Assembly: GCA_944385035.1 (NCBI GenBank)
Contig: CALWVV010000009.1
Coordinates: 1 to 64,000 of the forward strand
Reading direction: 5' to 3'
DNA length: 64,000 nt
Source of the DNA: an uncultured Oscillospiraceae bacterium
GTDB lineage: Bacteria > Bacillota > Clostridia > Oscillospirales > Oscillospiraceae
The notes below the pieces were generated by a model, which saw only the letters and a list, made by a program, of their open reading frames with translations, had not been told where the DNA came from and ran no database searches. This document shows positions 2,952 through 37,180 of this stretch, in pieces; within the stretch, counting starts at the first letter, position 1; every line of letters starts with the position of its first letter. The position numbers and the translations under genes are program-made.

Positions 2952-3683
2952 TTACCGGACTATAATCTCAAAGTTTTCACCGTACCCGATTTGATAACTG
3001 CTATGCACGGTTTGTCCATCGTCCAGTCGAACGACTCGTCCTTTCATTTCCAACTGTGGCGCATTTCTGGAGACCTGCAACAGTTTGGCGAGTTTTGTAT
3101 CTGCCCGCACGATACTTAGACGCATCGTAGAAGAACGCAGTTCAATCCCTCTAACCTCCCTAAGATAACGATAAGTGGAATCCTTTTCTAAATCAATAGA
3201 GAGCAGGTATGCGTATTCAAGTGGATAATAATTATCTTCCATTACCAGCGGTTTGTCGCCCGCATACCGCAACCGACAGATTCGGACAGCCGGATCTCCC
3301 GGGTTCAGTCCTAACATCTCCCGCACAGACGCTGCTTCAGGCGCTTTGATCCCCGCTTCGAGTATCTTGGCACGGGCTTCTAAACCATTGGCTGCACACA
3401 TCTCAGTAAAACTCATAGGCCCAGATCCCAGTCCTCGGGTGAACTTCGGCGAACACAGGAAGGTACCTTTCCCTTGCTTTTTTTCCACTAGACCTTGACT
3501 CACTAATTCGTCCACTGCACGACGGATCGTTATACGGCTGACGTTGTACTTGTTCGACAATTCCTCTTCTGTGGGCAAACGGCCAGTCTGGCTATACAAT
3601 CCAGACTGGATGTCCCGCTGCAGCTGCTCCACAATCTGGGCATACAGGGGAACGATGCTGTTAGGATTTAAGGTGTTCTCCAA
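2952..3683 (-). CDS. GntR-family regulator with UTRA domain (FrlR-like)
   Basis: A 243-residue regulator of the HutC/FrlR type. The N-terminal winged helix-turn-helix spans about residues 10-75 (LPTEEELSNKYNVSRITIRR, wing GLVEKKQGKGTF). The C-terminal UTRA ligand-binding domain follows (about 90-240; VRICRLRYAGDKPLVMEDNYYP). In E. coli the fructoselysine regulator FrlR belongs to this class. An ATG at 3713 exists, but I chose TTG at 3683 because GGGAGG precedes it by 8 nt and because the upstream ATG lies inside a putative operator. The same 14-bp motif occurs before all catabolic operons up to 37 kb, so this protein is the likely regulator of that set. It stands about 6 kb from its nearest target, separated by unrelated DNA. 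Confidence 0.8.
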   Translation of the reverse strand: MENTLNPNSIVPLYAQIVEQLQRDIQSGLYSQTGRLPTEEELSNKYNVSRITIRRAVDELVSQGLVEKKQGKGTFLCSPKFTRGLGSGPMSFTEMCAANGLEARAKILEAGIKAPEAASVREMLGLNPGDPAVRICRLRYAGDKPLVMEDNYYPLEYAYLLSIDLEKDSTYRYLREVRGIELRSSTMRLSIVRADTKLAKLLQVSRNAPQLEMKGRVVRLDDGQTVHSSYQIGYGENFEIIVR

Positions 3684-3711
3684 ACGATTTCGCCTCCCGT
3701 AACATTCGACC

Positions 3712-3746
3712 ATATAACATTACAAAATAAGTCTATAATGTCCTAT
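3712..3746 (-). promoter_or_regulatory. Two putative operators upstream of gntR
   Basis: 3712-3725 (ATATAACATTACAA) matches the island motif ATATAACATTATAT at 12 of 14 positions. 3733-3746 (CTATAATGTCCTAT) matches its reverse complement at 11 of 14. They flank the gntR translation start, which suggests autoregulation. DNA identity changes at about 3808, so upstream promoter parts may have been replaced. Confidence 0.55.
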
Positions 3747-3807
3747 TTCATATGATGATTATATCATAAAGAGAGAAAGCTCGCAAGCATATTTCCTATT
3801 TTCTCCA

Positions 3808-6077
3808 TTAGGGCCGTCATCGGCGAGCATGCGAGCGGCGTGAACGTGGACTACCAGGCCCCGGCGGACGCCGGCACCTACACCGTCACCGCCCATGTGG
3901 GTGAGACGGCCAACTACACCGCCCACGAGGTCAGCGCCACCTTCACCATCGGGAAGGCCGACCTGACCATCACCGCGGACAAACTGCAGCGGCAGCAGTA
4001 CGGCGCTTATCCTGAGATGGTGGCCACCTATGAGGGCCTGGCCACCGACGGCGTGGCGCCCGACACCTCCCTGCGGGATGTGCAGATCCAGCCCGAGTTT
4101 GCCACCGATTGGGACAACTTCGCGCAGGATCACGTTGGCAGTTATATCATCACCCCGTCCTCTGCCCTGGCGAAGAACTACAACATCACCTATGTGGCCG
4201 GCAAGTACGCCGTGACGGCTGAGGATCCCCAGCCCACCCTGGCCATCCACGGCCTGCCCGACAACGGCACGGAGACGACGGAGAACATCGTCTACTACGG
4301 CGATACCATCCAGCTCTACGCCTACGGCAACCAGGTGGACGACGTTATCAGCGACTCCAGCCTGCTGACCTGGAAAGTGAGCGATAGCACGATTGCTGGG
4401 ATTGATGGAAACGGCCTGCTGACCATCCAGGGCGTGGGTGAGTTCACCATCACCCTGACCCGCGGCATCGGCACGGAGGCCATCAGCACAGAGATCGAAG
4501 TGACAGCCCTGAAGAAGGAAGTCAAGGTGGAAGTGCTCAGCCTGGACCGCGTGTACATTGGCAGCGAATACAATTACGCCTCCAACAGAGTGTACGCGGT
4601 GGACGAGATGGGCAAGGAGGTCACAGCGACCATTGACGTTGACAACCGTGCGCACACCGACGTGGGCGGCTATGTGGTCACCGGCAAGGCGGCCGAGGCT
4701 GACACGCTCTACCAGTCCGAGACCTACGGCGGCCTGTTCACCATCAACGACAGGGAAGTCACCATTGATCCCAATGCTGTGACGACCACTTACGGCACCA
4801 GTACGAAGGACGTGAAGAAACTCTGGAGTGCCGAAGGGAAGGATACTGGTGGTGCGGATGTCCTCTCTAACGGCCTGGCAGTTTCCCTGACCGACGCCTA
4901 CGACAACCTGGATGTGGGCGAGTACGAGATCCTGGTGGCTGGCCGCGAGAACATCAACTACAACGTCAGTTACAAGAAGTACGAGGCCAACACCAGCGGC
5001 GATGCCAACGCGGTCACCGTGGAGAAGAAGGCTTTGACCATCGAAACCGGTTCCTACGATGGCGAGATCGGTATCACCAGCGGTTCCGTGAACCCCGAGG
5101 GCGACTATCCCGCCCAGGGTGAGGACTTCGACACCAGCGCAATGCTTGAGGACGCCAACGTCCGCATGTACGGCGAGCCCAACTGGGCCATGGGATTCGA
5201 TGTTACCGGTTGGGTTCCTGGCGACGACGTGGACGACCTGGTGGCGATCCTTGACTGGCTGGTTCAGTTCTCCGAGGGCAACCTCCGCGGCATCGGCGAG
5301 GACGCCAACCTGAAGTTCGAGACAGACGGTGTCTACGACACGAAGATCGACAGTAGCATGGAGGACTATGTCATCGACAGCATGATGGATGAAGGCGACT
5401 TCCGGAACTACGATGTTGATCTCGACGAGGGCACCCAGAACATCTACCAGCGCCCGGTGACGCTGAACCTGGATAGCACGATCAGCGCTTACTACGGCGA
5501 TGTGGTCGAGAACGGCAACGTGGATACAGATGCTCTGAAGGCGTTCCTGGAGGCCTACATCACAGTTGGCGAATACAACGGCATTGGCGGCCTGGCAGAG
5601 TTGTTGAACCACACCGCAAAGGATTTGGATCTCCAGATCAGTAAGGCAAGTTACGATGATGCGGATGGTGAGATTACCGCGACCATCTCTATCGGTAACC
5701 AGAATTACTGGATGGAGGAGGGCTCTATTAAAATCACCATCCCAGTTGTGAAGGATGCTTATACTGTGCGTTATGATGCGTTCAATGCTACAAATGCCAC
5801 GGTTACCATCCTGCATCTTGATGAGGATGGAAATAGTACGCCTGCAAATCTGCCTACGGATTGCAAACTCTATTGCGTGATCTATGTAAGGGATGATTCG
5901 CTCAAGACCTATGCGGACTATGCGGCATATGGTGAGGTTGCTTATCGCGGCGAGATGACCCGGAGCGGCAGCACAGGTCGCTACACGATCTCTTACCCCC
6001 GTCTGACCGGTAGTTTCAAGATGTTCGCAATTGCTGAAGGTCCTGGTATCACACTCGTGCAAATCGACAATCCTTGA
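3808..6077 (+). pseudogene. 5'-truncated surface protein with MBG-type repeats
   Basis: About 755 residues of a secreted repeat protein without a beginning. The reading frame comes in from the gntR upstream region with no ribosome site; recognisable protein starts near 3810 (AVIGEHASGVNVDYQAPADA). The repeats resemble MBG/Ig-like domains of Clostridial adhesins: several copies of 'AGTYTVTA...NYTAHEVSATFTI', 'KADLTITAD' and 'KKALTIETGS' pattern, plus a Big_2-like segment (about residues 130-220; TWKVSDSTIAGIDGNGLLTI). There is no signal peptide or anchor in what remains. The downstream SLH gene may have been part of the same envelope locus. GC-rich composition contrasts with the AT-rich gntR side, marking a recombination junction at about 3808. 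Confidence 0.7.
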
Positions 6078-10000: not shown

Positions 10001-11064
10001 ATGTTACTGGAGAAATCGGACCGGAACGCCGATCTGTACCGGCGGCCAGGAATCGTCTCTGACGGAGGATCTCAGGCGATTCTTTATTATGAGCATCAGG
10101 ACACCAGCCCCCTGCGCGCCAGACTCTGTATTATCGGATGACGACAGATGGCGGCAACACCTGGAGCGACCGGAATGTCCTCTTCTCTGGCGGCGCTACG
10201 GGAATGGTGCACAATCTGATGATGGCATATGCCGACGGCATCTTTTATAGTTTTTGGAATATCCAATATCGGCAGTTGTGGTGTTCCAGAAGCAAGGACG
10301 GGTTGACTTGGGAAGAGCCAAGGGATTTGACCCGCATGCTATGGCGCGCGGAATCAGAATACCCGTGGAACGCATTTGGAATCGGATCAGGGCACTGCGT
10401 GCGGCTGTCAAATGGCAGAATCCTGATTCCGACTTGGTTTACAACCGGGGGAGATGGGCACAAACCCTCCGCGTTTGCCAATATCTATTCAGACGACGGG
10501 TTCCAGACGGTACAGATCGGGGCGATGCTGCAGAACCGTCCGGAAACACCCATCGTCAATCCCAACGAGGGAGCAATCGTGGAATTAGACAACGGCAACG
10601 TCTTGGCCACAGTCCGCCATGATGGGACCTGCCGGGCGCGGGCTTTTGCTGTGAGCGCCGGAGGCGTTGGGCCTTGGCATACGCTGCAATTCCGAACGGA
10701 TCTGCCTGATCCCATCTGCCATGCGTCTTTACAGCGCCTGCAGAAGGACGGACGTACACGCATCCTGTTCTGCAACTGCTGTAATGCCGATCCGGGCGCT
10801 CAGGAGCGGTGGGAACGCGGGCTGAGCAAATATCCTTGGAGTGAAGATGCGCGGAAAAATCTGACGCTCCGGGTCAGTGACGATCAGGGCCAGACATTTT
10901 CAGCGGGGATACCGATTGCCCAGGAAGGGGGATACAGCGATTTGGCTGTGTGCGGGGATCAGATCCTTTGCATCTATGAGACCAACTGGAATGCAGAGGA
11001 CGGATGCATATATCCCCGTGGAATCGGTTTGGCCCGTATTGCCGTGTCGGAACTGGGCGAGTGA
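10001..11064 (+). pseudogene. Sialidase-like (BNR/Asp-box) protein, frameshifted
   Basis: First gene of the left operon. The start at 10001 follows AAGGAGGGGCGAA. The first 46 codons carry the Arg motif of sialidases (YRRPGIVSD, like YRIP) and then hit a stop at 10139. The rest continues in another frame from about 10110: Asp boxes TDGGNTW and SDDQGQTF, and the Arg/Glu region NPNEGAIVELDNG. Adding one C to the C5 run at 10108-10112 restores a single frame (...TSPPARQTLYYRMTTDGG). So one base is missing, by mutation, phase variation or sequencing error. No signal peptide, so the product would be cytoplasmic. It is paralogous to the intact gene at 35606-36679. Confidence 0.75.
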
Positions 11065-11109
11065 AAACAGAAGATGGACGTTGAAAAGATAAGGGAAGTA
11101 TTCTCTGTG

Positions 11110-11911
11110 ATGAACAACGCCTATGCAAGTTATACATTCCAATTCTTTTTGGACAGTATGGAGGCGTTGGGTTTGACGAAAGTCGACCTGTGGGGCGGCG
11201 TTCAGCATTTCGATCCCTACTGTGCAGACGCGGGGGTACATCAGGAGCACTCTGCGGAAATTGGCGGAGCGGGGCTTGTCTGTTACGGCGTACACCCCTG
11301 AAATATTGGCCTATCCCTACAATATCGCATCGGAAGATGATGAGGTCCGCAGGGAGAGCATAGCCTATATTGAGAGGAATATCTGGATCGCTGCACAGTT
11401 AGAGGCGCCGGTCATGCTGCTGTCGCCGGGCTGGGGTATGTGGGACCGCCCAAAGGAAGAGGCCAGGAAGCGGTCCGTAGATTCCCTGGCGCTGCTGGCG
11501 CAGAGAGCGGAAACTTTGGGGGTCCGTCTGGCTTTGGAACATTTGACAATCCAGAGTTCCAATCTCCTCAACTGTGTCGGGGATGTGCAAAAGGCCGTAT
11601 CTGAGATCGGGAACCCGTACTTTGGCGCTGTATTGGATTTGGGCCAGATGAGTGTATTCGGGGAAAACGTGTCGGATTACTTCCAGGCGCTGGGCGATAA
11701 GGTTTTTGTCGTACATATGATGGACGGCGGACCGCAGGGACATCTTGCCTTTGGGGACGGAGTCCTCCCGCTGCAGCAGTATTACGCTGATTTGCAGGCA
11801 TGTGGATACCGGGGGCCTATCACCCTTGAAATCAACGACGGCCGATATGCCAGAGATCCCCATCATGCGCTGCAGCAATGCGTGGCAGCCCTGCGCTGTT
11901 GGGAGGGGTGA
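11110..11911 (+). pseudogene. FrlC-like TIM-barrel epimerase, frameshifted
   Basis: Xylose-isomerase-like TIM barrel resembling fructoselysine 3-epimerase FrlC. The first part (SYTFQFFLDSMEALGLTKVDLWGG...) and the second part (LRKLAERGLSVTAYTPEILAYPYN...) lie in different frames. The break is at a G5 run at 11232-11236: with four G the text reads on as CADAGYIRSTLRKLAERG. Putative metal ligands are present (LEHLT, DLGQM, VVHMMD, LEIND). The start at 11110 matches the family N-terminus, although an ATG at 11074 is also in frame. It lies between the sialidase-like gene and another FrlC-like gene. Confidence 0.75.
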
Positions 11912-11914
11912 GCG

Positions 11915-12706
11915 GTGGATTTACAATATTTTTCCATTTGTACAAAGGCATTTTCCAAGAACTCCCTTCCCTATACCGTTCAGTCCCTTCAAAGGGCGGG
12001 ATGGTCGGATTGCGTTTTATGGGGCGGCGTCCCCCATGTGTGCCCCCTGTATGGAAATACGCGCACATGGGCGGAAAAGGCGGGATGGTTTCAGTCGGCA
12101 GGGATAACGATTTCCGCCTTTTATCCTGAGATGGCCGGATATGGATTGAATCCAGCCAGCGCAGACAGAAATTCCAAATGCAGGACAAAAGACTACTTGC
12201 TCCGGGCCATTGACTGCTGTGTGGCCGTGGGGACAAGGAGAATCCTCCTCTACCCGGGTGCGGCGTTGGAGGACGAGGACCGGGATCAGGCGCTGCGGCG
12301 GTCGGAGGAATTTTATCAGCCGGTTTTCGAGAAAATGGCGGCGGCAGGGATTACGCCTGTTTTGATGTGCGCTGGCTATAACGCCGGCAAAGAGGGATTC
12401 CCGATTTTTCAAAACAGCGCAATCAAATTTGCGGTTTCCAGCGACGAGATCATGGGGAACGCCGGGGCAGTCAAGGGATTGGAACGCAGTGTTGGCAAGG
12501 AGAATTTGGCGTTGCTGATTCTGTTTGACGGGCCGGGAGGGCATCTGGTGGCCGGAGACGGCATCTGGGATGTGAAGAAGTTGGCGGAGGACTGGCGGAT
12601 GCACTTTGAGGGGGCGTCCATGATGGTTCAGTTCGATGATCGGAGGTATGTGACAGATGCGCGGAGGGCGCTTCAGATTATGACGAAGCGGATACTGGCG
12701 TGGTAA
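11915..12706 (+). CDS. FrlC-like TIM-barrel protein lacking metal-binding residues
   Basis: A 263-residue TIM-barrel protein of the xylose isomerase-like family, paralogous to the preceding gene. It starts with GTG at 11915 after GGGAGGGGTGAGCG, 3 nt after the previous stop. Compared by eye with its neighbour, the positions that bind metal in FrlC-like enzymes are changed. LEHLT becomes LMCAG (Glu to Met), the His before the MD/FD pair becomes Leu (LILFDGP), and LEIND becomes VQFDD (Glu to Gln). The GGHLVAGDG stretch is kept. It may therefore be a non-catalytic partner or have a different chemistry. Confidence 0.75.
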   Translation: MDLQYFSICTKAFSKNSLPYTVQSLQRAGWSDCVLWGGVPHVCPLYGNTRTWAEKAGWFQSAGITISAFYPEMAGYGLNPASADRNSKCRTKDYLLRAIDCCVAVGTRRILLYPGAALEDEDRDQALRRSEEFYQPVFEKMAAAGITPVLMCAGYNAGKEGFPIFQNSAIKFAVSSDEIMGNAGAVKGLERSVGKENLALLILFDGPGGHLVAGDGIWDVKKLAEDWRMHFEGASMMVQFDDRRYVTDARRALQIMTKRILAW

Positions 12707-12739: not shown

Positions 12740-13220
12740 GTGGCAGATAAAAAAGCACTGGAAATGCAGCACATTTTTAAAAGTTTTGGCGGCGTGCATG
12801 CATTGCGGGACGTATCTTTTACCGCTTATGAGGGAAAGGTCAACGTCCTGATGGGAGAAAATGGCGCCGGAAAATCCACATTGATGCGGATTTTAGCCGG
12901 TGCAATCCAGGGGGACAGCGGTGAAATCTTCATCGATGGGCAGAAAGTGAACATCTACGATCCCAGCAGTTCCAGAACGGCTGGCATTTGTCGAAGAGTT
13001 GGAAAAGGGTGTAGGCAATACCATTGTTTGGTCTTTTGCGGCTCAGGATTGCTTTGCCATCGGTAGCCAGGCTTTTGAACTTGCTGTGGAAGCGGCAAAG
13101 GGTAACCTACCGACGGAAGAAATATACGATGTTCCCGGCCAATTGGTGATGGCGGACAACCTGGATGAGTATCTGGAGGAATATAACTTCCAGCAGGAGC
13201 AGGTTCTGAAGTATCAATAA
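12740..13220 (+). pseudogene. Deletion remnant: sugar ABC ATPase start joined to binding-protein end
   Basis: From GTG 12740 (GGAGGAAGCACG before it) the first about 85 codons are the start of an RbsA/MglA-type sugar ABC ATPase, with the Walker A motif [16 protein letters not shown]. At about 12975-12990 the match stops. In another frame follows the C-terminal end of a periplasmic sugar-binding protein ([18 protein letters not shown]...NLDEYLEEYNFQQEQV), ending at 13220. The rest of the ATPase, the permease and most of the binding protein are missing, as after a deletion of a few kb. The left operon thus once had a sugar ABC transporter. Confidence 0.8.
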
Positions 13221-13357
13221 CGGTAAGCAAAGAGAGAAAAAGTGAACTGACAAGCAGAAATGGACATGCGGCGCTCCGACGGAAAGAGCATCGGATGGAA
13301 CCGTGCGTTCGCTCCGCGGAGCGCCGCATGCATGCAAACAAGCAAAGGGGGTTAGAT

Positions 13358-14167: not shown

Positions 14168-14177
14168 GGAGGAAGAA

Positions 14178-25995: not shown

Positions 25996-26033
25996 GCTAC
26001 ACACCTCCGGACAATGAGCATTGCGTCTGTGGG

Positions 26034-27153: not shown

Positions 27154-27208
27154 TCATAACATTATATTTACTATGAACAATTATAACACTAGAATTTAAT
27201 TTTTGCAA
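27154..27208 (-). promoter_or_regulatory. Promoter and operator of the opp operon
   Basis: On the minus strand TTGCAA (27203-27208) and TATAAT (27180-27185) are 17 bp apart. Just downstream, 27154-27167 (TCATAACATTATAT on the plus strand) matches the island operator at 12 of 14 positions, so a repressor there would sit in the early transcribed region. The 345-base gap 26988-27332 contains nothing else I can name; no terminator is evident for the SIS gene. Confidence 0.65.
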
Positions 27209-27332: not shown

Positions 27333-28340
27333 TTAATAGTCAAATTTCCACATGTAGCGTCGATAGGACATGGGGTGCATCCGGACATCTCCCATAGCGG
27401 CAATAAATTGCTTCGAAATAGGGTGCAGCAACAATGCATTGAAATATTCGGCCACATGCTCATCTAACTGATTTAGTCCAAGTTGAGCCGCATCAATAAC
27501 CCAATGGTGACCTCCAAACTGGTCCAGGAACCGCTGAGCCCGTTCATCAAGAGGTCGGGTACGTCCCACACTCTTAAACAGAAGGATTGCCAGGTCCTTG
27601 TCACAGGTCTCAAAAGCCCCATGGAAGTACTCCCCAGAGTGTACAGGGACACAGTGAACAGTCTGCATTTCCTGGAAGAAGCAGAAGGCGTCGGAATAAG
27701 CTACCTCCCAGGCTGCGCCGCTGCTCATCACGTTCCACACCTGGTCGTCCTTATATGTCATGGCAAACTTAGCCGTCTGAGGCTTGACAGCAGCATACGC
27801 AGCTCCGTAAATATCTCTCATCTTCTCAAAGGCTTCCATTGCCTGGTCAAAGTAGGCATAGTGGTCGTATTCTTTCAAAAGCCAAAAGGCGATCTTCAGA
27901 GCAGTGCCCTGGCTATTGCAGTGAACCAAAGAAGGATCCTGGTACCATTCGTCAGCGTGGTAATACGTGACATAATAACGAGCGGTTTGAGCGGTGAGGG
28001 AATCTGCGTAACCGGACAGACCAATGGTCACAGCCCCCTTGTCTTTCGCCACCTGAAGGGCTTGAACCGTCTCAGGAGTCGCCTTTGTAGAGGTACCAAT
28101 GACCAGGGTATTCTGATCTACAGACTTGGGCGTTGCATGAACAAACTCGCTGCTGTTATAGCCTTGGACTCGAAGGCTACTCTCCTGATTAAGTAGATAA
28201 CGGGCCGGATAGGAGGAGGCAAAGGAACCTCCACAGGCTACAAAGATTACCTGTTTCAGACCTCCATTCGCATCCAGATCGGCCTTGGCCTTGGCCATGA
28301 CCTCGTTCACTTCCTGCATTCCCTTGATCATCTCTATCAT
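27333..28340 (-). CDS. SIS-domain sugar-phosphate deglycase/isomerase, FrlB-like
   Basis: A 335-residue protein with two SIS domains (about 25-160 and 190-320). It matches the FrlB / fructosamine-6-phosphate deglycase type: GGLKQVIFVACGGSFASSYPA near residue 27, VIGTSTKATPETVQAL near 95, and HSGEYFHGAFE near 235, which corresponds to SGEFRHG of FrlB where the Glu/His catalytic residues lie. The end HPMSYRRYMWKFDY also fits. It would split a 6-phosphorylated Amadori compound into glucose 6-phosphate and an amine. The second ATG at 28331 has better spacing to AAAGGA and could be the real start. It follows hyuB by 12 nt. Confidence 0.82.
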   Translation of the reverse strand: MIEMIKGMQEVNEVMAKAKADLDANGGLKQVIFVACGGSFASSYPARYLLNQESSLRVQGYNSSEFVHATPKSVDQNTLVIGTSTKATPETVQALQVAKDKGAVTIGLSGYADSLTAQTARYYVTYYHADEWYQDPSLVHCNSQGTALKIAFWLLKEYDHYAYFDQAMEAFEKMRDIYGAAYAAVKPQTAKFAMTYKDDQVWNVMSSGAAWEVAYSDAFCFFQEMQTVHCVPVHSGEYFHGAFETCDKDLAILLFKSVGRTRPLDERAQRFLDQFGGHHWVIDAAQLGLNQLDEHVAEYFNALLLHPISKQFIAAMGDVRMHPMSYRRYMWKFDY

Positions 28341-28352: not shown

Positions 28353-30095
28353 TCAGCGCAGGTCCGAGGTGGCCTGCTCATCTATAGCATAATGGATTCC
28401 ATCTTCATTGGTAATTACTACGCCATACTGATCCCTTGCAGCCTGGAGGGACACCTTTCCCTCTACCACGTCCTGAAGCACTTTGGCTGCGGGGCGCTTT
28501 TTGGGATCTCCATATCCGCCGGCGCCGGGAGTAATCACCCGAATCACGTCTCCCTTCTTCAAAGGAAGACTGGTTGTCTTGTGCCCCATGCGGGTAACGC
28601 TGCCGTCCTGAGCGGATACTCGATAGAAAGCGCCCACGCCTCCCTCACCTCCGCCCTGGAGGCCCCAGGGGTGGAACTTGTGCCGGTCACCCAGGCCAGT
28701 ATAAAGCACGTCGTCCTGGAGAACCTCCAGTTCCCGCTCAATACCCAAACCTCCCCGCATCTCGCCCGCCCCGCCAGTATCCGTCTTAAGTTCATATTTT
28801 CTGGCAAGAATCTTGGTAAATTCCATTTCGGTAGCTTCGATCGGCATGTTGGATGTATTGGTCATGTTTACCTGTACACCTGAGAGCCCATCGAAGATCC
28901 GGGAGGCACCGCCACCCCCGGCAATAACCTCGTGAAAGATGAACACACTGTCGGTGCCGATGGCTCCCTCGCCAGCCAGAATGGTAGTGGTACAAGCGCC
29001 GTTACCCGCAGTAACAGCGGTGTCAGGGAAGATGGGGGCCAACGCGCCGAAGATAGCGTCAGGGATACGCTGGCAACAATCAATTTGAGCTCCAATCGGG
29101 CTGGGTTCCGTAGGATTAACGATGCACCCTTTAGGCGCAATGATATTTACCGCCCGATTAATCCCCTCATTGGCTGGAATATCATCCCCCATTAGAGCCT
29201 TGACAGAGAAAAAGACTGCCGCTTTGGTACAGGGATAAGGCACGTTAATTGGAGCCTTAATTTGCTGGGCGGTACCAGTGAAGTCAAAAGTAAGACTATC
29301 CCCAGCCACAGTAATCTTCACTCGAATGGGCAGGGGATCAGGATACTTGTCACCGCAGCCATCCACATAGTCAGTATAGGAATACTCCCCGTCGGGCAGC
29401 GTGGCCACCACCGCCCGAACTCGACGTTCGGAATAGGCCACTAATTCTTTCATACAGGCCTCCAAGTCGTCACCATAGCGCCTGTAAGCCTCCTGGATAC
29501 GCTGCACCCCAATGAGATTAGCTGACATCTGAGCTGTCAGATCCCCTTCTCGTTCCTGGGGAACTCGCGTGTTGTCCAACAGCAAATCTAGTACGCTTGG
29601 GATGAGCTGATCCCGCTCCCGAATACGAATCACAGGGATACGGATTCCTTCTTGGAAGAGGCTATCAGCATCACCCGAGGTGGATCCAGGTACCTTACCC
29701 CCAATATCCGAGTGATGGGCAATGTTGGCGATCCAGCCCACTAGCTTGTCTCCCACAAAGGCAGGAGCGGCGATGACAATGTCTGGCAAATGGTTGCCGC
29801 CGCCATGATAGGGGTCGTTGGCAATGAACATATCCCCTGGATGCACATTTTCCCGGCCGAATTTCTCATAAATGTTGGGGACTACACTGAGCATAGAACC
29901 CAAAAGAGCCGCTAGACTCTCAACCTGGGCTACACTGTTTCCGTCGGGATCAATCACAGCTGTACACACGTCACGGCGCTCCTTCATGTTGGTGGAATAA
30001 GCGCTGCGCACGATGATACCATAGGTCTCCTCAGCGATAGACATGAGCAGGTTACGGACCACCTCTACGGTGACGGTATCGATTTTCTTTGCCAT
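28353..30095 (-). CDS. Hydantoinase/oxoprolinase subunit B (HyuB-like), right copy
   Basis: A 580-residue HyuB-type subunit, intact. Hallmarks: VEVVRNLLMSIAEETYG, NDPYHGGGNHLPDIV, HHSDIGGKVPGSTSG and VIRVITPGAGGYGDPKKR. It starts one base after the hyuA stop, so the subunits are made together. With HyuA it is expected to hydrolyse a cyclic amide using ATP. The left paralogue is at 17593-19320. Confidence 0.9.
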   Translation of the reverse strand: MAKKIDTVTVEVVRNLLMSIAEETYGIIVRSAYSTNMKERRDVCTAVIDPDGNSVAQVESLAALLGSMLSVVPNIYEKFGRENVHPGDMFIANDPYHGGGNHLPDIVIAAPAFVGDKLVGWIANIAHHSDIGGKVPGSTSGDADSLFQEGIRIPVIRIRERDQLIPSVLDLLLDNTRVPQEREGDLTAQMSANLIGVQRIQEAYRRYGDDLEACMKELVAYSERRVRAVVATLPDGEYSYTDYVDGCGDKYPDPLPIRVKITVAGDSLTFDFTGTAQQIKAPINVPYPCTKAAVFFSVKALMGDDIPANEGINRAVNIIAPKGCIVNPTEPSPIGAQIDCCQRIPDAIFGALAPIFPDTAVTAGNGACTTTILAGEGAIGTDSVFIFHEVIAGGGGASRIFDGLSGVQVNMTNTSNMPIEATEMEFTKILARKYELKTDTGGAGEMRGGLGIERELEVLQDDVLYTGLGDRHKFHPWGLQGGGEGGVGAFYRVSAQDGSVTRMGHKTTSLPLKKGDVIRVITPGAGGYGDPKKRPAAKVLQDVVEGKVSLQAARDQYGVVITNEDGIHYAIDEQATSDLR

Positions 30096-30096: not shown

Positions 30097-32160
30097 TCAC
30101 TTCACCTCGTCATTATGGATCTTCAGGTTGTGGTATCCGTCTATGTGGATAGTCCATCCAACGGGTACCACCAACGTGGTGTCCATCTGCTCACAGATGC
30201 AGGGTCCTGGGATGGACTGGCCAGGCAAAAAACTCTCCCGCTGATAGACCGGGGTATCTACATACTCCAGCTCCCCCTGGAAAAGGACTCTCCGGTGCTC
30301 AATGGGCTGGGGCAAAGGGGCGTCGGGCTGGAGAGAAGCCGGTTGAAGGTCTGGTTTGTCTATCACACCGATGGCGGATACCCGGTAACTGACAAATTGG
30401 ACAGGAGCCTCCTCTTTGCAGTAGCCGTAGCTGCGTTTGTGCTCGGCGTGAAAATCGGCCAGGGCATTGGCCAAGGTGTCCTCAGTCATCCTTCCAGCGG
30501 GAACGGGAATGCAGATTTCAAAGTTCTGGCGCTGATAACGCATATCCACATAATACTCAAAGTAGCGCCGGTCAGCGGGCACGCCCTCTTTATCCAGTAG
30601 CTGGGTACCCTGGTCCACCATATGGTCGAACTGTTCATTGATGGCATCCAAGTTAGTCACCTCGCCCCGGAGGACCTTGGTTCTGGAGAGGTCGAATTTG
30701 GTGTCGGCCAGCAGCAAACCCAAAGAGCACAGGGTACCGGGGTGAGGCGGGATGAGCACCTCTGACATCCCCAGCTCCTTGGCCACCTCGCAGGCGTGGA
30801 GCGGACCAGCTCCGCCAAAGGCCATCAGGCTGAACTCTCGCACATCGTAGCCCTTTTCCACCGACACGCTGCGGATGGCACGCACCATGTTGGAATTAAC
30901 GACTGTGATGATGCCGTTGGCTGCCCGGTTCAGATCAAGGTCAGATTTGTCACAGATCTTTTCCCGAATTGCCTTTTTGGCCAGCTCAATATCCACGTCC
31001 ATCCGGCCGCCTAGTATCTTTTTCTGGTTGAGCTTGCCCAGAACGATATTGGCGTCGGTGACGCAGGGGTTTTCGCCGCCGCGCATGTAGCAGGCCGGGC
31101 CGGGAGTGGCGCCCGCGCTCTTGGGGCCTACCTTCAGAGCGCCGCCGTCATCAATCTTGGCGATGGAGCCGCCGCCGGCGCCGATGGTGATGATGTTGAT
31201 CATGGGGATGCGTGCAGGATAACCCTCCACATAGCGCTCGTTGGATACCTGGGGCGTAAAGTTCTCAATAAGGGAAATATCTGCGCTTGTTCCCCCCATA
31301 TCAAAGGTAATGATCTTATCTGCACCGCACTGTCTACCGATATAGGCAGCGGCAATGACTCCGGCAGAAGGACCAGAGAGAGCCGTCTTGATGGGGCAAT
31401 CGATGGTCTCTTTGATGGAGATAATAGACCCATTAGACTGAGTGACATAAGGTTCCACACCGATGCCAATATCAGCGATGGAATCCCGGAAGTTGTTGAC
31501 GTAACGCTCCATGACCGGCCCCAGGTAACTGTTCATAACGGTAGTGCTCATGCGGCTGAATTCCCGGAACTCAGGGGCCAGCTTGCTGGATACGGTGACA
31601 TAGGCCTCGGGGAACTCCTCGTGAATGATCTCCTCAATGCGCAGTTCATGAACGGGATTGATAAAGGAGAACAGAGTGCATACCGCAATGGCGGCCACGC
31701 CCTGTGCCTTCAGGTAACGTACTACCTGGCGGGTCTCCTCTTCGTCCAGGGGAGTCTCTACCGTGCCGTCATAACGGATGCGCTCGGTGACGGTACAATT
31801 GAGACCAGAGGGAACCAGAGGATAGGGCTTTTGCGTTTGAAGGTTGTAGAGAGAGGGACGGCGCTGTGTGCCGATCTCCATCAGATCTTTGAAGCCCTTC
31901 GTGGTGATGAGTCCCAGACGGCAGCCTTTCTTTTCAATTAGGGCGTTGGTTCCCACGGTGGTGCCATGGGCCAGGTAGCTCACTTCCTCAGGGCTGGCTT
32001 GTTTTATGGCAAGGACATCTTCCACGCCTTTGACAATGGCACGGGAGGGGTCTGCCGGTGTGGAGCTGTCTTTGTAGTTAAATAATTCTCCCGTTTCCTG
32101 GTTGAAGACAGAAAAATCAGTAAAGGTTCCTCCTACGTCCACGCCGATCATATAAGACAT
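30097..32160 (-). CDS. Hydantoinase/oxoprolinase subunit A (HyuA-like), right copy
   Basis: A 687-residue ATP-binding subunit, intact. MIGVDVGGTFTDF opens the protein; LAHGTTVGTNALIEKKG, FDMGGTSADISLIE and FGGAGPLHACEVAKELG follow at the expected distances. First gene of the operon hyuA-hyuB-SIS. The perfect operator at 32238-32251 lies about 80 bp upstream of its start. Very similar to the left copy, so one was probably derived from the other or both from one ancestor cluster. Confidence 0.9.
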   Translation of the reverse strand: MSYMIGVDVGGTFTDFSVFNQETGELFNYKDSSTPADPSRAIVKGVEDVLAIKQASPEEVSYLAHGTTVGTNALIEKKGCRLGLITTKGFKDLMEIGTQRRPSLYNLQTQKPYPLVPSGLNCTVTERIRYDGTVETPLDEEETRQVVRYLKAQGVAAIAVCTLFSFINPVHELRIEEIIHEEFPEAYVTVSSKLAPEFREFSRMSTTVMNSYLGPVMERYVNNFRDSIADIGIGVEPYVTQSNGSIISIKETIDCPIKTALSGPSAGVIAAAYIGRQCGADKIITFDMGGTSADISLIENFTPQVSNERYVEGYPARIPMINIITIGAGGGSIAKIDDGGALKVGPKSAGATPGPACYMRGGENPCVTDANIVLGKLNQKKILGGRMDVDIELAKKAIREKICDKSDLDLNRAANGIITVVNSNMVRAIRSVSVEKGYDVREFSLMAFGGAGPLHACEVAKELGMSEVLIPPHPGTLCSLGLLLADTKFDLSRTKVLRGEVTNLDAINEQFDHMVDQGTQLLDKEGVPADRRYFEYYVDMRYQRQNFEICIPVPAGRMTEDTLANALADFHAEHKRSYGYCKEEAPVQFVSYRVSAIGVIDKPDLQPASLQPDAPLPQPIEHRRVLFQGELEYVDTPVYQRESFLPGQSIPGPCICEQMDTTLVVPVGWTIHIDGYHNLKIHNDEVK

Positions 32161-32237: not shown

Positions 32238-32251
32238 ATATAACATTATAT
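32238..32251 (-). promoter_or_regulatory. Operator of the right hyuA-hyuB-SIS operon
   Basis: ATATAACATTATAT is the best copy of the island motif: inverted repeat ATATAA / TTATAT with a CA centre. On the minus strand it contains TATAAT, the likely -10 box, so repressor and polymerase would compete. No convincing -35 box is seen. Confidence 0.65.
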
Positions 32252-32289: not shown

Positions 32290-33087
32290 TCAAGACCTGG
32301 AAGACAAAAATTTGTTTGCCTCAAGCCAGGCGATATTGCGCCGGTCGGCCAGGGCAGGATTTTGCCGGTAACGTGGGTCATTGCACTCTAAGGCATACAT
32401 TCCCTGATAGCCCCACTCCTCCAGGCGGGTGAGATAGTCGGCCAAGGGGAGGTCACCGTCTCCCAAGGCCATGTGGATGGCGGGATGGGAGTCGTGAAGA
32501 TGGACATGGTCTAACTGAGCCCCCAGGGCCAGGTAGTCTTCCAGTGCTTGCCCCATGAATACCATTTGCCCCAAGTCTACCATGGCACGGACCGATCCCT
32601 GCGGCAGCTGTGCAATCATTTGGCGCTGCTGGGATGGTGTGTTGACCAGGTTGGAAGACAGCGGCGTCAGAGTTTCCAAAACCAGATAGACTCCATGCAG
32701 ACGGGCAAACTGGGCAATTTGTGTCAGGCTGTCCACGCTGCGAGCCCAGGCCGCTTCCACAGAACGGTTGAAATAGCCGCAACCTGCGGTTACCAGCACC
32801 TTGGGGCAGCCCAGTACCTGGGCAACCTGCACCGCACGCTGGAAGTTACGTATGCTGTATTGGCGAAGTTCTTCCTCCTCGGCAGCGAGGTTTACGGGGT
32901 AGACACACTGTTCGGGAGTGAGACAGCATACTTGTAAATTTCTGACCCGGAGTTCCCGGGCAATTTGGTCCAACCGCTGGGCAGTAATGGTATCCAGGCA
33001 GAGATGGGGGGCAGCTGCCCATAATTCCACCTGTCTCATGCCCAGCTCTGACGCTGTGTCCAGAAAATATTCCAAAGGATAGCGCAA
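32290..33087 (-). CDS. FrlC-like TIM-barrel epimerase, right copy
   Basis: At least 265 residues of a xylose-isomerase-like TIM barrel close to fructoselysine 3-epimerase FrlC: ELGMRQVELWAAAPH, then LTPEQCVYPVNLAAEEEELR. The metal ligands are present (LETLTP, VDLGQM, HVHLHD, LECNDPRY). The first standard start in frame is TTG at 33087, without a ribosome site. Family-like sequence continues upstream to about 33115 (RIALGSYQY), and only ATC/ATT codons are available there before a stop at 33147-33145. Translation may begin at a rare codon or the start may be lost. It lies 47 nt after the kinase stop. Confidence 0.75.
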   Translation of the reverse strand: MRYPLEYFLDTASELGMRQVELWAAAPHLCLDTITAQRLDQIARELRVRNLQVCCLTPEQCVYPVNLAAEEEELRQYSIRNFQRAVQVAQVLGCPKVLVTAGCGYFNRSVEAAWARSVDSLTQIAQFARLHGVYLVLETLTPLSSNLVNTPSQQRQMIAQLPQGSVRAMVDLGQMVFMGQALEDYLALGAQLDHVHLHDSHPAIHMALGDGDLPLADYLTRLEEWGYQGMYALECNDPRYRQNPALADRRNIAWLEANKFLSSRS

Positions 33088-33134: not shown

Positions 33135-34037
33135 TTACCCCCCTTCATAGATTCGGGCTCGCACTGATTCGGGTACTGGCGTCCCACAGCCAAAGGCCCC
33201 GTGGGTCAGGCAGGTCTGAGCGGAGTAATGGGCTGCCTGGTCCAATGCAGCGGGGATGGTTCCCGCCCGGAACAGTTCGCTGTCCCATTTGGTGCGCCGC
33301 TCCGGCTCCATGGCATTCAACAGGTGGATCAGCATAGCGGTGGCAAAGCTGTCCCCTGCGCCCATGGTGTCTACTGGTTCCACCAGATGAGGGAGTTGGC
33401 GGTAGAAGTGTGCGCCGTCATAGACGGTGGCGCCTTTGCTGCCCCGAGTGGCAGTTACGACCCCACAGCCCATTTGGTTTAAGCGCAGACACAGATTTCG
33501 AGTTGCTTCCTCGTCAAGATCGCTGCAGGAGAGGAAGGCAAAGTCTACATAGGGACAGACCCGCGCCAGCCGGTCCTCTTCATTCCAGCGATAGGAGAAA
33601 TCGTAGCTCACCATAGAAGGTAGGGTGTGAAGGATGGGCAGCAGTGAGTCGGTAAAGCCATTATTTGTGGTATGGATGAGCTGAAACGAAGCGAGGTATT
33701 CCATGTCGCTGGGTTCCAGGGCAATGGGGTGTTCCTGAAGCACACCGCCTCGGTTGCTTCCTTTAAACACTCGATCTCCATTCACCAGAGTAACCCGGGC
33801 AAATCCATTTTCTCCTGGCCAACTACGACAATGGCTGTGTCCGACTCCCTTCTCATCTAGAGTCTGTTGCACATGTGCGGCTACCTCGTCTTGGCCAAAC
33901 ACTCCCATATAGTCCGCTTGTACTCCCATTTGAGCGGCATAGACCGCAAAGTTCAGTGCCTGACCGCCGGGATACATGATGCCTGTGTGAAGATAGACAT
34001 CGCAGACATTGTCCCCCAACCCCAATACTTTTACCAT
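33135..34037 (-). CDS. PfkB-family sugar kinase, FrlD-like, right copy
   Basis: A 300-residue kinase with the FrlD-type N-terminus (VLGLGDNVCDVYLHTGIMYPGG, then NFAVYAAQMG). The C-terminal catalytic signature is DTMGAGDSFATAM, about residue 230. In E. coli, FrlD phosphorylates fructoselysine at C6; an equivalent role on a glycated amine is inferred. The start at 34037 follows AGGGGGAAAG. It is longer than FrlD at its C-terminus. It differs clearly from the left kinase, so the two may not have identical substrates. First gene of the kinase-epimerase pair. Confidence 0.82.
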   Translation of the reverse strand: MVKVLGLGDNVCDVYLHTGIMYPGGQALNFAVYAAQMGVQADYMGVFGQDEVAAHVQQTLDEKGVGHSHCRSWPGENGFARVTLVNGDRVFKGSNRGGVLQEHPIALEPSDMEYLASFQLIHTTNNGFTDSLLPILHTLPSMVSYDFSYRWNEEDRLARVCPYVDFAFLSCSDLDEEATRNLCLRLNQMGCGVVTATRGSKGATVYDGAHFYRQLPHLVEPVDTMGAGDSFATAMLIHLLNAMEPERRTKWDSELFRAGTIPAALDQAAHYSAQTCLTHGAFGCGTPVPESVRARIYEGG

Positions 34038-34196
34038 GAACTTTCCCCCTGAACTTTGATTCCAACTGAGCACCCAGGTAGCAAGCTTCTCCAGCCACAC
34101 TTGGAGATGTTGGAATCGTATCCCATACTCTCATATCTATACATTGAGAAGCGCTTCCTTCAGCAGCAGGCGTACTTAACACAACTTTAATTTATA

Positions 34197-34210
34197 TTAT
34201 ATTGTTATAA
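34197..34210 (-). promoter_or_regulatory. Putative operator of the kinase-epimerase operon
   Basis: TTATATTGTTATAA matches the island motif (reverse complement form) at 11 of 14 positions, the weakest of the set, inside a long AT-rich stretch. The gap 34038-34374 (337 bases) otherwise shows only AT-rich DNA with no clear terminator for either neighbour. Confidence 0.45.
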
Positions 34211-34374: not shown

Positions 34375-35592
34375 CTACAACTCTTCCCTTCTAACACACC
34401 CGTGTCCCATGAGAAAGAACAAGGGAATATTCCCCACGCTGATTGCTAAGCTAAGCCACACCAATACATCTGTCCCTAACCTGTCACATAAGAATCCGCC
34501 CAATAAATTGGCCGCAATAGTCCCTCCGACACTACTTGCTGTCAACCCCACAGAGATGGAAAAAATTCGAATATAAGGATAGGAAACACAGGTAAACCAC
34601 TCAGCACTACCTACGTAAAAGAGTGCAAAGCTAACCGATTGAAGCAGCTGCCCCAAATACAATGGCCACACCCCCGGCAGCAGCAGGATACACATCGGGC
34701 GTATTATTCCCGATACCAATGCCCCAGTCATACAGGCAATGTGGGAGAGCTTACCTCTTTTCTGGTAAACGGCCACTACAAGCAAGGCTAAACATTCTAC
34801 GACTGCACCCATACCGCACACCGCTCCGTAAGTTCCAGGCCCTCCCGATCTCTCTTCCACAATTAAAGAGAGGTAGCTGCCCACCGGGCGATGGCTAAAC
34901 CAATACACCGTACATACCAGTAAACAAATACAGTAAGAGTGTTCCCTGAGAGCAGTCTTGATGCAGCAGAGGGGAGACATACCTGGACCGCCTGTATCCC
35001 GTCTGCGGTTGCCCGGTTTTATGTCAGGCAGGTCAGACAAGAAGGGAATCATGGTCAAAAAGAAACCTGCTTGAAGCAAAAAATACCCGTCCCACCCATA
35101 CCGTTTCAAATATCCTCCCACCACAAGAGAAGACAGCGCAAAGCCGATGGAGCCCCCAGCCCTAATCCGGCTGTAAGTTAGTCCTGGATCAACTTCCCGG
35201 CTGCAATTGACCCAGGCATCCAACAGTTGACTAAATGGATAAGCTACACCGGCCGTAGCTACCAAAGCGGGGAAATACAACCAGGGCATATCTGCCGCCC
35301 AGGTACACAACAAACACAAAACCCCGATGATACCTACACACATCATTAAAAATCGGCGGGCAGATAGGAACGTATCTGTGATATATCCACCTATTGGTTC
35401 GGTTATCAGATTAGCAATTAACGTTAAACTGGTGATGAGACCACACAGTGTCACACTGTATCCCTTATTGGTTAAATACATGACCATATAGCTCGAAAAA
35501 ATACAATAACCACCGTAATAAAAGAAATAGACTGCAAAAAAGGAAGCAGAATATCTGCTTCTCTCACACCGACCAACACCACAGCCCCGCAT
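34375..35592 (-). CDS. MFS transporter (PPP/NHS-like)
   Basis: A 405-residue membrane protein with about 12 hydrophobic segments and the pattern of the MFS 'phenylpropionate/nucleoside symporter-like' group. SASFFAVYFFYYGGYCIFSSYMVMYL comes first, and the loop TEPIGGYITD lies between helices 2 and 3. LTYSRIRAGGSIGFALSS resembles the conserved YGKIRLWGSIGF motif. The start at 35592 follows GGAGGAAAGG and overlaps the end of the sialidase-like gene. It may import the free sugar or conjugate made available by the operon. Confidence 0.82.
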   Translation of the reverse strand: MRGCGVGRCERSRYSASFFAVYFFYYGGYCIFSSYMVMYLTNKGYSVTLCGLITSLTLIANLITEPIGGYITDTFLSARRFLMMCVGIIGVLCLLCTWAADMPWLYFPALVATAGVAYPFSQLLDAWVNCSREVDPGLTYSRIRAGGSIGFALSSLVVGGYLKRYGWDGYFLLQAGFFLTMIPFLSDLPDIKPGNRRRDTGGPGMSPLCCIKTALREHSYCICLLVCTVYWFSHRPVGSYLSLIVEERSGGPGTYGAVCGMGAVVECLALLVVAVYQKRGKLSHIACMTGALVSGIIRPMCILLLPGVWPLYLGQLLQSVSFALFYVGSAEWFTCVSYPYIRIFSISVGLTASSVGGTIAANLLGGFLCDRLGTDVLVWLSLAISVGNIPLFFLMGHGCVRREEL

Positions 35593-35605
35593 TACCTTTC
35601 CTCCG

Positions 35606-36679
35606 TTAATCCGATCCAAAGGATGACAACGGGATTCCAGCTACCGTCAAAGTTTTATTGTAAATACAGTTGCCATCAGACCAGCCTTGTTCATAAAAGC
35701 ATAGTATATGGCTCCCATCTTTTGTCTGCCCCAGATCACAGCCGCCTCCCTCTCTCTCTAAACAGATGCCTCGGGACCAAGTACTTCCCCCATCTGCGCT
35801 CAGACGCAAAGTTAGATTCTGCCGTGCATCCAGGCTCCAGCGTACTGACTCTCCCCGTCGCTGCCGTTCCAAGGCAGCCTCATCTCCCCAGGCGCAGTTA
35901 GCAAAAGCCAAACGCCCATCCTTTAAGGCTAACAGAGCCCCGGAACACACTGGGTCAGGCAGGTTTTGATCCAGCCAAGGTCGGCTCCACTTCTCAGGTC
36001 TGCCCTGACAAAATGCCCTGAGCCGTACACCAGGAATCTCATGGCGTAATGTGGCTAAAAGCATACCATCCTCTCTCTGCGCCACCGAAGCTTCCGTAGG
36101 ATCTCCTATCCCTTCGCCTGCTTGAACTATACTGCCGCACTTCCAGTTCTGACCCAGATCATCGCTGAACAAACAGGCAAAACAGGCGGGAAGGTGGGCG
36201 TTTTTCCCCCGGCTCAGCCACAATGGTATCACCAGCCTCCCTTCTCTCAAAAAGAGACCGTGTCCGGGAGATATGGCCCAGAGCGTCACTGGCCAGATTG
36301 AGCGAAAACCTTCTATAACCTGGGTAAGCTCCTTAGTCGGTCCAAAATGTTCTCCGTTGTCCCAACTTTCCCGCACAAACAGTCGGTGGTAATCCTGGCA
36401 CCAAAACAACCAAACTCGACCCTCTGGCCCTGCAATCATCAAGGGATTATGTATCAGCTCTGCCCCCTGTCGCTGAACCAAAATCTGCCGTTGTAAAAAG
36501 CTTCGCCCACCATCCAGGCTACGCCGTCCCAACAAAGTCCGGCAGTCTCCTTCCTCTCCGCGCCCCTCATAATAAATCAGTACCTCACCATTGGACACAG
36601 TCACCAATCCTGGGACTCGATAAGACTTAAAGCCACCTTCTCCGTTTTGCTCCACCAAAGCACTATAGTTCTCTTCCAT
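35606..36679 (-). CDS. Sialidase-like (BNR/Asp-box) cytoplasmic hydrolase
   Basis: A 357-residue six-bladed propeller-type protein of the BNR_2 sialidase superfamily. It has the Arg motif YRVPGLVTVSNGEVLIYYEGRG near residue 20, Asp boxes (SLDGGRSF, SDDLGQNW, SADGGSTW), and a Glu/Arg region EASVAQREDGMLLATLRHE near 190. No signal peptide, so it acts inside the cell, unlike secreted sialidases. It follows the mutarotase stop by 3 nt and is coupled to the MFS gene. A glycosidase working on an imported, perhaps acidic, glycoside is a fair guess. Intact paralogue of the broken gene at 10001-11064. Confidence 0.75.
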   Translation of the reverse strand: MEENYSALVEQNGEGGFKSYRVPGLVTVSNGEVLIYYEGRGEEGDCRTLLGRRSLDGGRSFLQRQILVQRQGAELIHNPLMIAGPEGRVWLFWCQDYHRLFVRESWDNGEHFGPTKELTQVIEGFRSIWPVTLWAISPGHGLFLREGRLVIPLWLSRGKNAHLPACFACLFSDDLGQNWKCGSIVQAGEGIGDPTEASVAQREDGMLLATLRHEIPGVRLRAFCQGRPEKWSRPWLDQNLPDPVCSGALLALKDGRLAFANCAWGDEAALERQRRGESVRWSLDARQNLTLRLSADGGSTWSRGICLEREGGGCDLGQTKDGSHILCFYEQGWSDGNCIYNKTLTVAGIPLSSFGSD

Positions 36680-36682
36680 CCT

Positions 36683-37129
36683 TTACTCCTCCTGTTTTTC
36701 TGAAAAACTAAGTGTAAACCGCTCCACATACTTCTCCATCCCTGAAGCAGAATATAGTACCATGCTACAGCAGCTCCCCATATCCCCTGTGCGTACAACC
36801 GCTTTGGCCCGAAGCATAATCTCTGTTAGTTCTCTCTGGTCTACTGTGCCGCCCGGCAAGGGGTTCAGCAGACTTTGAATGGCCTTTGCCATGCCTGGAT
36901 TGTATTCAGGCATCAAAGAAAACAGGTCATACCTCTCTGCCACCATATCATTGAGCACGGCCTTCATAACTTGCATCATCGTAGGTACTCCCCTCGTCAA
37001 AGAAAGATCGATAATTGAACATTTTGGTGGAATGGGCATGTTCCCATCACACAAGACGATTGCATCTCCATGCCGGGCCTCCACCATCGCCCGGCAAAGC
37101 TCTGCATTAATAACCGTTGTTTTTACCAT
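36683..37129 (-). CDS. RbsD/FucU-family sugar mutarotase
   Basis: A 148-residue protein of the RbsD/FucU fold, which interconverts sugar anomers (pyranose/furanose or alpha/beta). ARHGDAIVLCDGNMPIP holds the catalytic His and Asp near residue 20, and RTGDMGSCCSMVLYSA is the family C-terminal block. The start at 37129 follows GGAGGGATATCT. It leads the operon mutarotase - sialidase-like - MFS. A mutarotase beside a glycosidase suggests that a free reducing sugar is released in the cell. Confidence 0.82.
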   Translation of the reverse strand: MVKTTVINAELCRAMVEARHGDAIVLCDGNMPIPPKCSIIDLSLTRGVPTMMQVMKAVLNDMVAERYDLFSLMPEYNPGMAKAIQSLLNPLPGGTVDQRELTEIMLRAKAVVRTGDMGSCCSMVLYSASGMEKYVERFTLSFSEKQEE

Positions 37130-37152
37130 AGATATCCCTCCATTTTTATTAT

Positions 37153-37180
37153 ATTATATAACATCATATCCTTTTGTAAA
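37153..37180 (-). promoter_or_regulatory. Promoter and operator of the mutarotase operon
   Basis: On the minus strand TTTACA (37175-37180) and TATAAT (37153-37158) are 16 bp apart. ATATAACATCATAT (37156-37169, plus-strand reading) matches the island operator at 13 of 14 positions and fills the spacer, so binding would exclude polymerase. Confidence 0.65.

Follow-up and report, generated by a model that had tools for sequence, protein, structure and literature searches.

Two described operons come closest to the genes reported here, the frl operon of Escherichia coli (FrlABCDR), which serves fructoselysine, and the fra operon of Salmonella (FraBDAE-FraR), which serves fructose-asparagine. FraE was proposed to convert fructose-asparagine to fructose-aspartate ahead of FraD and FraB (PMC4072780), the substrate of FraB is given as 6-phosphofructose-aspartate (PMC12051030), and a paper of 2022 described a conserved general acid and base common to FraB and FrlB (PMC9609667). 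Amadori compounds occur widely in foods that have been heated or dried. A part of them cyclises to lactams, which known deglycases should not attack because the nitrogen is then an amide. Here we describe a stretch of 64,000 nucleotides (the window), contig 9 in the genome of an uncultured Oscillospiraceae bacterium (2.52 Mb in 53 contigs, 89.5% complete) whose habitat we infer to be the gut. Two facing operons occupy 10-37 kb of the window, and both carry genes for HyuA and HyuB. A preliminary description had claimed an Amadori-type island combined with HyuAB, and this claim was borne out by Pfam and NCBIfam scans, which assigned the window proteins to their families, and by the conservation of the association among relatives. 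The minus-strand operon (19.8-37.1 kb), in which all genes are intact, is probably an Amadori-compound utilisation operon with a HyuAB lactamase as its first enzymatic step. Its genes, in the order RbsD, BNR_2, MFS, kinase, epimerase, HyuA, HyuB, SIS, OppB, OppC, OppA, OppD, OppF and M20, and the regulator gene assigned to it are as follows.

2955..3713, minus strand, GntR/UTRA regulator (Pfam UTRA 93.5 bits, GntR 69 bits)
19802..21346, minus strand, M20 amidohydrolase (TIGR01891 amidohydrolase 250 bits, cutoff 154)
21267..26987, minus strand, OppF, OppD, OppA, OppC and OppB importer (family scans)
27336..28340, minus strand, predicted SIS-domain ketosamine-6-phosphate deglycase, FraB/FrlB-like (profile and PDB matches, tree)
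28356..30095, minus strand, HyuB (metal residues D42/H102/D105/H127-128 conserved)
30100..32160, minus strand, HyuA (ATP-site motifs conserved)
32293..33087, minus strand, FrlC-like 3-epimerase (PRK09856, 120 bits)
33138..34100, minus strand, FrlD-like PfkB kinase
34378..35619, minus strand, MFS transporter (family scan)
35609..36679, minus strand, BNR_2 sialidase-like protein (family scan)
36686..37129, minus strand, RbsD/FucU mutarotase (family scan)

The two HyuAB copies, the M20 protein, OppABCDF, RbsD, MFS and the two BNR_2 proteins listed in the preliminary description were all present. A search of the genome assembly showed that the host has two HyuA copies, both in the window, which are 65% identical to each other.

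First, the kinases were compared with family models. The top model for both was fructoselysine 6-kinase, by a wide margin (226.7 bits in the plus-strand operon and 182.2 bits in the minus-strand operon, with the next family at 67 and 55 bits). A nucleoside or ribose pathway, hinted at by RbsD, PfkB and MFS, was rejected on these scores, which lie far above those for ribokinase. The epimerases at 32293-33087 (minus strand) and 11222-11908 (plus strand) had fructoselysine 3-epimerase as their top match. The preliminary description had counted three TIM-barrel epimerases; two FrlC-like ones were found, one of them frame-broken, while the product of 11915-12703 matched AP_endonuc_2 only weakly.

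The top NCBIfam match of the SIS protein was the FrlB deglycase. Its PDB matches were 3fkj (226 bits), the SIS chains of 9ot*/9ou6 (192-219 bits) and 3eua (202 bits), the last recorded as a 'putative fructose-aminoacid-6-phosphate deglycase'. It aligned end to end with 3fkj and with the chains of the 9ot series, among which 9otu carries Ala for the catalytic-site Glu. Those records read 'SIS domain protein'; the length of the 9ot and 9ou6 chains, together with the Glu-to-Ala chain, leads us to read them as Salmonella FraB. Glu224 and His240 (the His of the FHGxFE motif), matched through FraB catalytic residue numbers that we assume to be right, were kept in 38 of 38 aligned rows, so a general acid and base of the deglycase type are predicted. 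In the SIS tree, 27 of the 28 HyuAB-linked sequences formed one clade (support 99/95), near groups that hold FraB, 3fkj and SIS proteins not linked to HyuAB; the remaining one (L027) lay outside on a long branch. All 27 clade members read FHG[AP]FET at the catalytic His, and the T was found there in 0 of 11 other aligned rows. Model scores for the kinases, and scores together with the tree for the SIS protein, thus did not place these proteins in other sugar families, the outcome that the preliminary description had named as fatal to its claim.

The top PDB matches of HyuA and HyuB were N-methylhydantoinase (514 and 304 bits, respectively) and 5-oxoprolinase (453 and 225 bits). The ATP-site Asp residues of HyuA were present in 34 of 34 aligned rows, and the Asp-His-Asp-His metal residues of HyuB in all 32 rows with sequence there (2 of 34 were gapped); matched to caprolactamase by motif rather than by CapA/CapB alignment, these sites suggest an ATP-dependent lactamase. 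Mutation of the metal and ATP sites of caprolactamase is described as abolishing (CapB) or strongly reducing (CapA) its activity (PMC8453981). That the pair is instead an ATP-dependent carboxylase of the acetone/acetophenone type, acting on a sugar-derived ketone, would agree with its homology to acetophenone carboxylase subunits, but is highly improbable, as the minus-strand HyuA scored 614 bits with the caprolactamase alpha model and far less (351 and 204 bits) with acetophenone carboxylase-type models.

Conservation and regulation of the gene set

Genomes were scanned with the minus-strand HyuA, and the best 80 of 111 relatives were analyzed. They comprised a close set of 31 Bacillota loci (L003-L033, HyuA identity 61-90%) and a distant set of 49 loci (L034-L082, 28-45%). 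Neighbouring genes were scored by tblastn with the window proteins. Because the close HyuA loci were sought with patterns from the window protein, intermediate relatives such as Priestia were under-sampled. Among the 31 close loci, SIS was found in 26, a FrlD-type kinase in 26 and both in 25 (in L011 the kinase was missed at a contig end); a GntR/UTRA gene was found in 26. SIS lay directly 3' of HyuB (<300 bases) in 23 of 27. In contrast, SIS or kinase was found in 0 of the 49 distant loci, 29 of which hold at least 5 kb on both sides.

At E<=1e-60, HyuA was detected in 5 of 394 genomes sampled from the order and in 57 of 398 from the phylum, with the host genome among the positives both times, and a housekeeping 5-oxoprolinase was ruled out on the former count. 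Forty stretches around these matches were examined. Two had HyuA at 65-78% identity, namely L138 (78%), which carries SIS and kinase, and L139, which is L020 again; the other 38 (36-46%) showed neither gene, 21 of them holding at least 5 kb on both sides. In total, 0 of 87 loci with distant HyuA carried SIS or kinase, some of these stretches being short. The HyuA tree placed the SIS/kinase loci, together with loci that carry an FGGY kinase, in one clade (support 100), apart from 24 distant rows. Outside the genome scan, plasmid pBEH4 of Priestia filamentosa (L158) carries a minimal cassette, MFS-SIS-HyuA-HyuB-PfkB-GntR, whose HyuA (50.6% identity) joins the island HyuA clade (support 99).

These counts rule out a chance neighbourhood of genes (25/31 versus 0/87), and a conserved HyuAB-deglycase-kinase cassette, as read from the sequences, is well supported; the co-occurrence of FrlB and FrlD homologues with HyuAB that the preliminary description had asked to see in other genomes was therefore found. 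Transport and sugar modules are swapped among the loci, as might be expected of two unrelated pathways lying side by side by accident. That explanation has very little chance of being right in view of the same counts, the position of SIS directly after HyuB, and a palindrome common to the operon segments.

This 12-base palindrome, TATAAYRTTATA, precedes the GntR gene and four segments of the intact operon. All six window sites, two of them overlapping, lie just upstream of island genes.

3713..3724, at the GntR start, operator-like palindrome, 1 mismatch to TATAAYRTTATA
27155..27166, before OppB, operator-like palindrome, 1 mismatch
32239..32250, before HyuA, operator-like palindrome, exact
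34198..34209, before the kinase gene, operator-like palindrome, 1 mismatch
37147..37168, before RbsD, two overlapping operator-like palindromes, 1 mismatch each

In the window, L003-L033 and L138 (693,503 bases), TATAAYRTTATA with at most one mismatch occurred at 51 sites, as against 3-11 in five dinucleotide shuffles, and exactly at 9 sites, as against 0, a contrast that serves as a guide only, since the pattern was derived from the same upstream regions and whole-locus shuffles ignore AT-rich promoters. Of the 51 sites, 39 stood upstream of an island gene at a distance of at most 300 bases, 3 were intragenic and 9 were elsewhere. The shared palindrome links the operon with the GntR gene at a distance of 24 kb. 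Moreover, its product is 77-78% identical to the GntR protein encoded directly downstream of SIS in L003 and L004, and by its sequence the gene at 2.95 kb is the displaced regulator of the operon.

Proposed pathway and substrate

Deglycases of this type free the amine by ketosamine chemistry that requires a basic amine. Because a lactam locks the amine, the ring must open before deglycation. We therefore propose that Opp takes up a carboxylated ketosyl-amine in which a lactam ring ties up the amine, a task that TRAP, MFS or ribose-type ABC systems would take over in relatives. The imported compound would most likely be N-(1-deoxyfructosyl)-pyroglutamate, that is, cyclised fructosyl-glutamine. 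HyuAB would open the lactam at the cost of ATP; in the resulting fructosyl-glutamate, the secondary amine would be basic. The FrlD-like kinase would then phosphorylate C6 of the sugar, and the phosphorylated fructosyl-glutamate would be cleaved by the FraB/FrlB-like SIS enzyme to glucose-6-phosphate and glutamate. Epimers or anomers may be brought in by the FrlC-like epimerase and RbsD, and GntR would repress the gene set through the TATAAYRTTATA operator.

The order of steps and the substrate are what we infer, and N-fructosyl-pyroglutamate is a tentative choice, favoured over any other single compound in our judgement and yet slightly short of an even call. N-fructosyl-pyroglutamate forms from fructosyl-glutamine and is the best-known Amadori lactam. 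Its ring-opened product, fructosyl-glutamate, exceeds fructosyl-aspartate by one carbon, and the amine released last, glutamate, calls for no further dedicated enzyme, in line with the minimal gene set. A carboxylated substrate would suit both TRAP and Opp systems. The compound is reported in buckwheat honey (PMC12114437). In the open-licence literature, nothing was found that joined fructoselysine to hydantoinase, or Amadori compounds and the gut to 5-oxoprolinase, and nothing on deoxyfructosyl oxoproline; the titles and abstracts on fructosyl-pyroglutamate named no bacterial use, and the portions available on Amadori compounds with hydantoinase concerned an unrelated use only.

The import systems bear on where the cyclic amide lies. 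TRAP was found in 14 of the 31 close loci, Opp in 12 and a ribose-type ABC importer in 2. An N-H lactam or hydantoin could sit elsewhere in the amine part, as in a pyroglutamyl peptide, a hydantoin from carbamylated lysine or arginine, or a lysine lactam; HyuAB and M20 would then process the amine part, after SIS and kinase or alongside them. Opp and M20 occur together in the window and in L009, L025 and L028, N-methylhydantoinase is the best match of HyuA, and lactams, hydantoins and 5-oxoproline are the substrates named for the HyuAB family (PMC8453981). Against this, M20 was found in the operon of just these 3 of 31 relatives (L030 has an M20 fragment 9 kb off), and the same HyuAB clade occurs with TRAP or ribose-type ABC importers, which argues against peptides as the common substrate. 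We regard this arrangement as rather unlikely, while some lineages, with their M20 and Opp genes, may take peptide-like substrates. The preliminary description had proposed a substrate with both a cyclic and an acyl amide; its cyclic amide core survives, and the acyl amide is weak in view of the M20 count.

Several further observations count against an Amadori operon opened by a lactamase. Kinase, epimerase, SIS and HyuAB all scored under the NCBIfam equivalog cutoffs, so that neither a fructoselysine operon in the strict sense (FrlB 66 bits, cutoff 430; FrlC 120 and, in the plus-strand operon, 115 bits, cutoff 305; FrlD 182 and 227 bits, cutoff 247) nor a strict caprolactamase (CapA and CapB 614 and 266 bits in the minus-strand and 630 and 295 bits in the plus-strand operon, cutoff 1000 each) was found. 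The neutral lactim route is closed to an N-alkylated lactam, and no HyuAB enzyme shown to open such a lactam was found in the open-licence literature. A FrlC-type epimerase was recognisable in just 13 of 31 close loci. The TRAP binding protein of L012 had generic top PDB matches, none toward pyroglutamate, and pyroglutamate as a TRAP ligand from structural kin was dropped. Of 33 sequences, just 20 had the palindrome upstream of an island gene; the others (L008, L015, L017, L020, L023-L028, L030, L031 and L033) probably use another operator.

The association is also incomplete. In the reverse test, SIS was found in 10 of 391 genomes of the class, the window's own included, and HyuAB lay nearby in only 1 of the 9 others (Petroclostridium, L018); thus Amadori use at large does not depend on HyuAB, which marks an operon subtype. 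L024 has the kinase and no SIS. The Priestia SIS carries the ordinary FEI motif, without the island signature. Four other loci whose HyuA falls in the island clade (L017, L020, L031 and L033) lack SIS and FrlD-type kinase and carry an FGGY kinase and BtpA (PF03437) instead, so the same HyuAB clade serves another sugar module, in which BtpA is a candidate new enzyme. These four loci also have TRAP, and three of them an epimerase. As a separate observation, plasmids of Enterococcus faecium (L162) encode a SIS protein of 37% identity, with genes for a mannose-family PTS IID component and a sigma-54 regulator next to it, and 171 of 421 plasmid records with a SIS match were from Enterococcus.

No PxpA family protein was found in the host genome, at 89.5% completeness, so that a plain 5-oxoprolinase role keeps some weight on this score, a further point against an Amadori lactamase. 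HyuAB might then salvage free pyroglutamate from spontaneous Amadori decay, in keeping with the 5-oxoprolinase match of HyuA at 453 bits. We consider this improbable: HyuA is rare in the order, and such close tracking of a single deglycase clade would be surprising for a salvage enzyme.

Beyond this operon, we suggest, with some reserve, that gut and environmental Bacillota have a pathway for N-ketosyl lactams, N-fructosyl-pyroglutamate foremost, with glucose-6-phosphate and glutamate as products. It would comprise an unrecognised HyuAB subfamily and a matched SIS clade, with BtpA in an alternative, undescribed module for sugar release. If so, the conserved lactamase-deglycase operon would explain who degrades the lactam fraction of Amadori compounds.

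The plus-strand operon and its surroundings

The plus-strand operon spans 10.0-19.5 kb, with the following features.

10001..11061, plus strand, BNR_2 protein (Pfam BNR_2; frame broken near 10110-10140)
11065..11908, plus strand, FrlC-like epimerase (frame broken between 11229 and 11252; PRK09856 115 bits for 11222-11908)
11915..12703, plus strand, weak TIM-barrel (AP_endonuc_2-like) protein (28 bits, below the Pfam cutoff)
12740..13217, plus strand, relic of a ribose-type ABC ATPase (residues 1-84) fused to a binding-protein tail (residues 296-372)
13346..14164 (start approximate), plus strand, FrlD-like PfkB kinase
14127..15041, plus strand, Amidohydro_2 hydrolase (109.6 bits)
15034..15462, plus strand, YjbQ/UPF0047 (family scan)
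15525..17597, plus strand, HyuA (Pfam Hydantoinase_A 330 bits)
17572..19317, plus strand, HyuB (593 bits)
19357..19455, plus strand, SIS gene relic (residues 15-47, 33 residues, 64% identical to the L016 SIS)

Judged by these reading frames, the plus-strand operon is a decaying paralogue of the minus-strand operon. The same operon type in L016 and L029 has ribose-type ABC importer genes between epimerase and kinase, and SIS and GntR follow HyuB; in the window, an internal deletion joins two of the importer genes. The first part of the BNR_2 protein lies in another frame, its alignment to L016 starting at residue 64, and the epimerase aligned as two segments in different frames (11065-11229 and 11252-11902). 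These two frame breaks may be sequencing errors. The preliminary description had read all the genes as one island pathway. Two operons forming one pathway with doubled parts were ruled out, since the plus-strand operon is broken, and an intact operon beside a decayed paralogue takes the place of that reading.

The Amidohydro_2 and YjbQ genes (14127-15462), absent from the preliminary description, are paired in the window and also in L016, L024, L029 and L133. In L133 they stand with SIS, two kinases, FGGY and BtpA, and no HyuAB was found within that stretch.

The island is flanked (3840-8019 and 37372-40060) by possible frames with MBG/Big_2 and SLH domains and by a DUF772 transposase; integrase-like N-terminal domains lie at 7087-8019 (plus strand) and 39644-40060 (minus strand). 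Some of the flanking frames overlap one another and may be spurious. A CitX-CitG fusion protein (citrate lyase prosthetic group synthesis) is encoded at 8161-9621, where the surrounding G+C is higher than that of the island. No tRNA was found in the window, and no RNA family reached the gathering score.

Comparison with known systems

The frl operon resembles the minus-strand operon in having a kinase, a deglycase, a 3-epimerase and a GntR/UTRA regulator of the same families. However, it has no HyuAB and a different transporter, and its proteins are 22-32% identical to those of the window. In the fra operon, FraB belongs to the nearest characterised deglycase group in the SIS tree, and the amide hydrolysis proposed for FraE before deglycation (PMC4072780) is a parallel to HyuAB here, one not drawn in the preliminary description. 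FraE is an asparaginase that acts on a side-chain amide, whereas the step proposed here is an ATP-dependent ring opening; the fra operon also has another transporter and no epimerase. The ATP-dependent lactamases (caprolactamase, 5-oxoprolinase and N-methylhydantoinase) have metal and ATP-site residues in common with the window HyuAB, which differs from them in its context of sugar kinase and deglycase and in missing the caprolactamase cutoffs. If the proposed pathway is right, HyuAB enzymes gain a glycated N-alkyl lactam as substrate.

The agrobacterial opine plasmids pAoF64/95 and octopine Ti, also new to the comparison, carry HyuAB (HyuA at 46-47% identity) beside ABC importers and an FAD oxidoreductase, and pAoF64/95 carries a SIS-PfkB pair as well; the stretches concerned are NC_019555.1, 44.2-47.9 kb and 61.8-67.9 kb, and NC_002377.1, 84.2-87.9 kb. 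The tree did not resolve a close relationship between these HyuA proteins and the island HyuA clade, the opine rows, weakly placed, joining two other distant rows (support 80) outside the island clade. In pAoF64/95, SIS and a PfkB kinase are 33% and 36% identical to those of the window, but lie in an operon separate from HyuAB. In its annotated record, four transport genes line up with SIS and PfkB, an array that we take to be the motABCDmocDE operon. This operon is described for pAoF64/95, as is an operon for agropinic acid uptake that adjoins the mannopine genes (PMC6341043). The HyuAB of the opine plasmids probably serves agropinic acid. Agropinic acid is N-mannityl-pyroglutamate, a reduced analogue of the fructosyl lactam, and presumably it is opened by the HyuAB-like products of the Ti-plasmid genes agaF and agaG. 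Among the open-licence papers listed for the aga gene names, PMC4231840 was the sole one with a title on opines. If that role is right, HyuAB enzymes open N-hexityl lactams, the main chemical objection to the proposed first step is gone, and the pathway would tie gut bacteria to agrobacterial opine chemistry.

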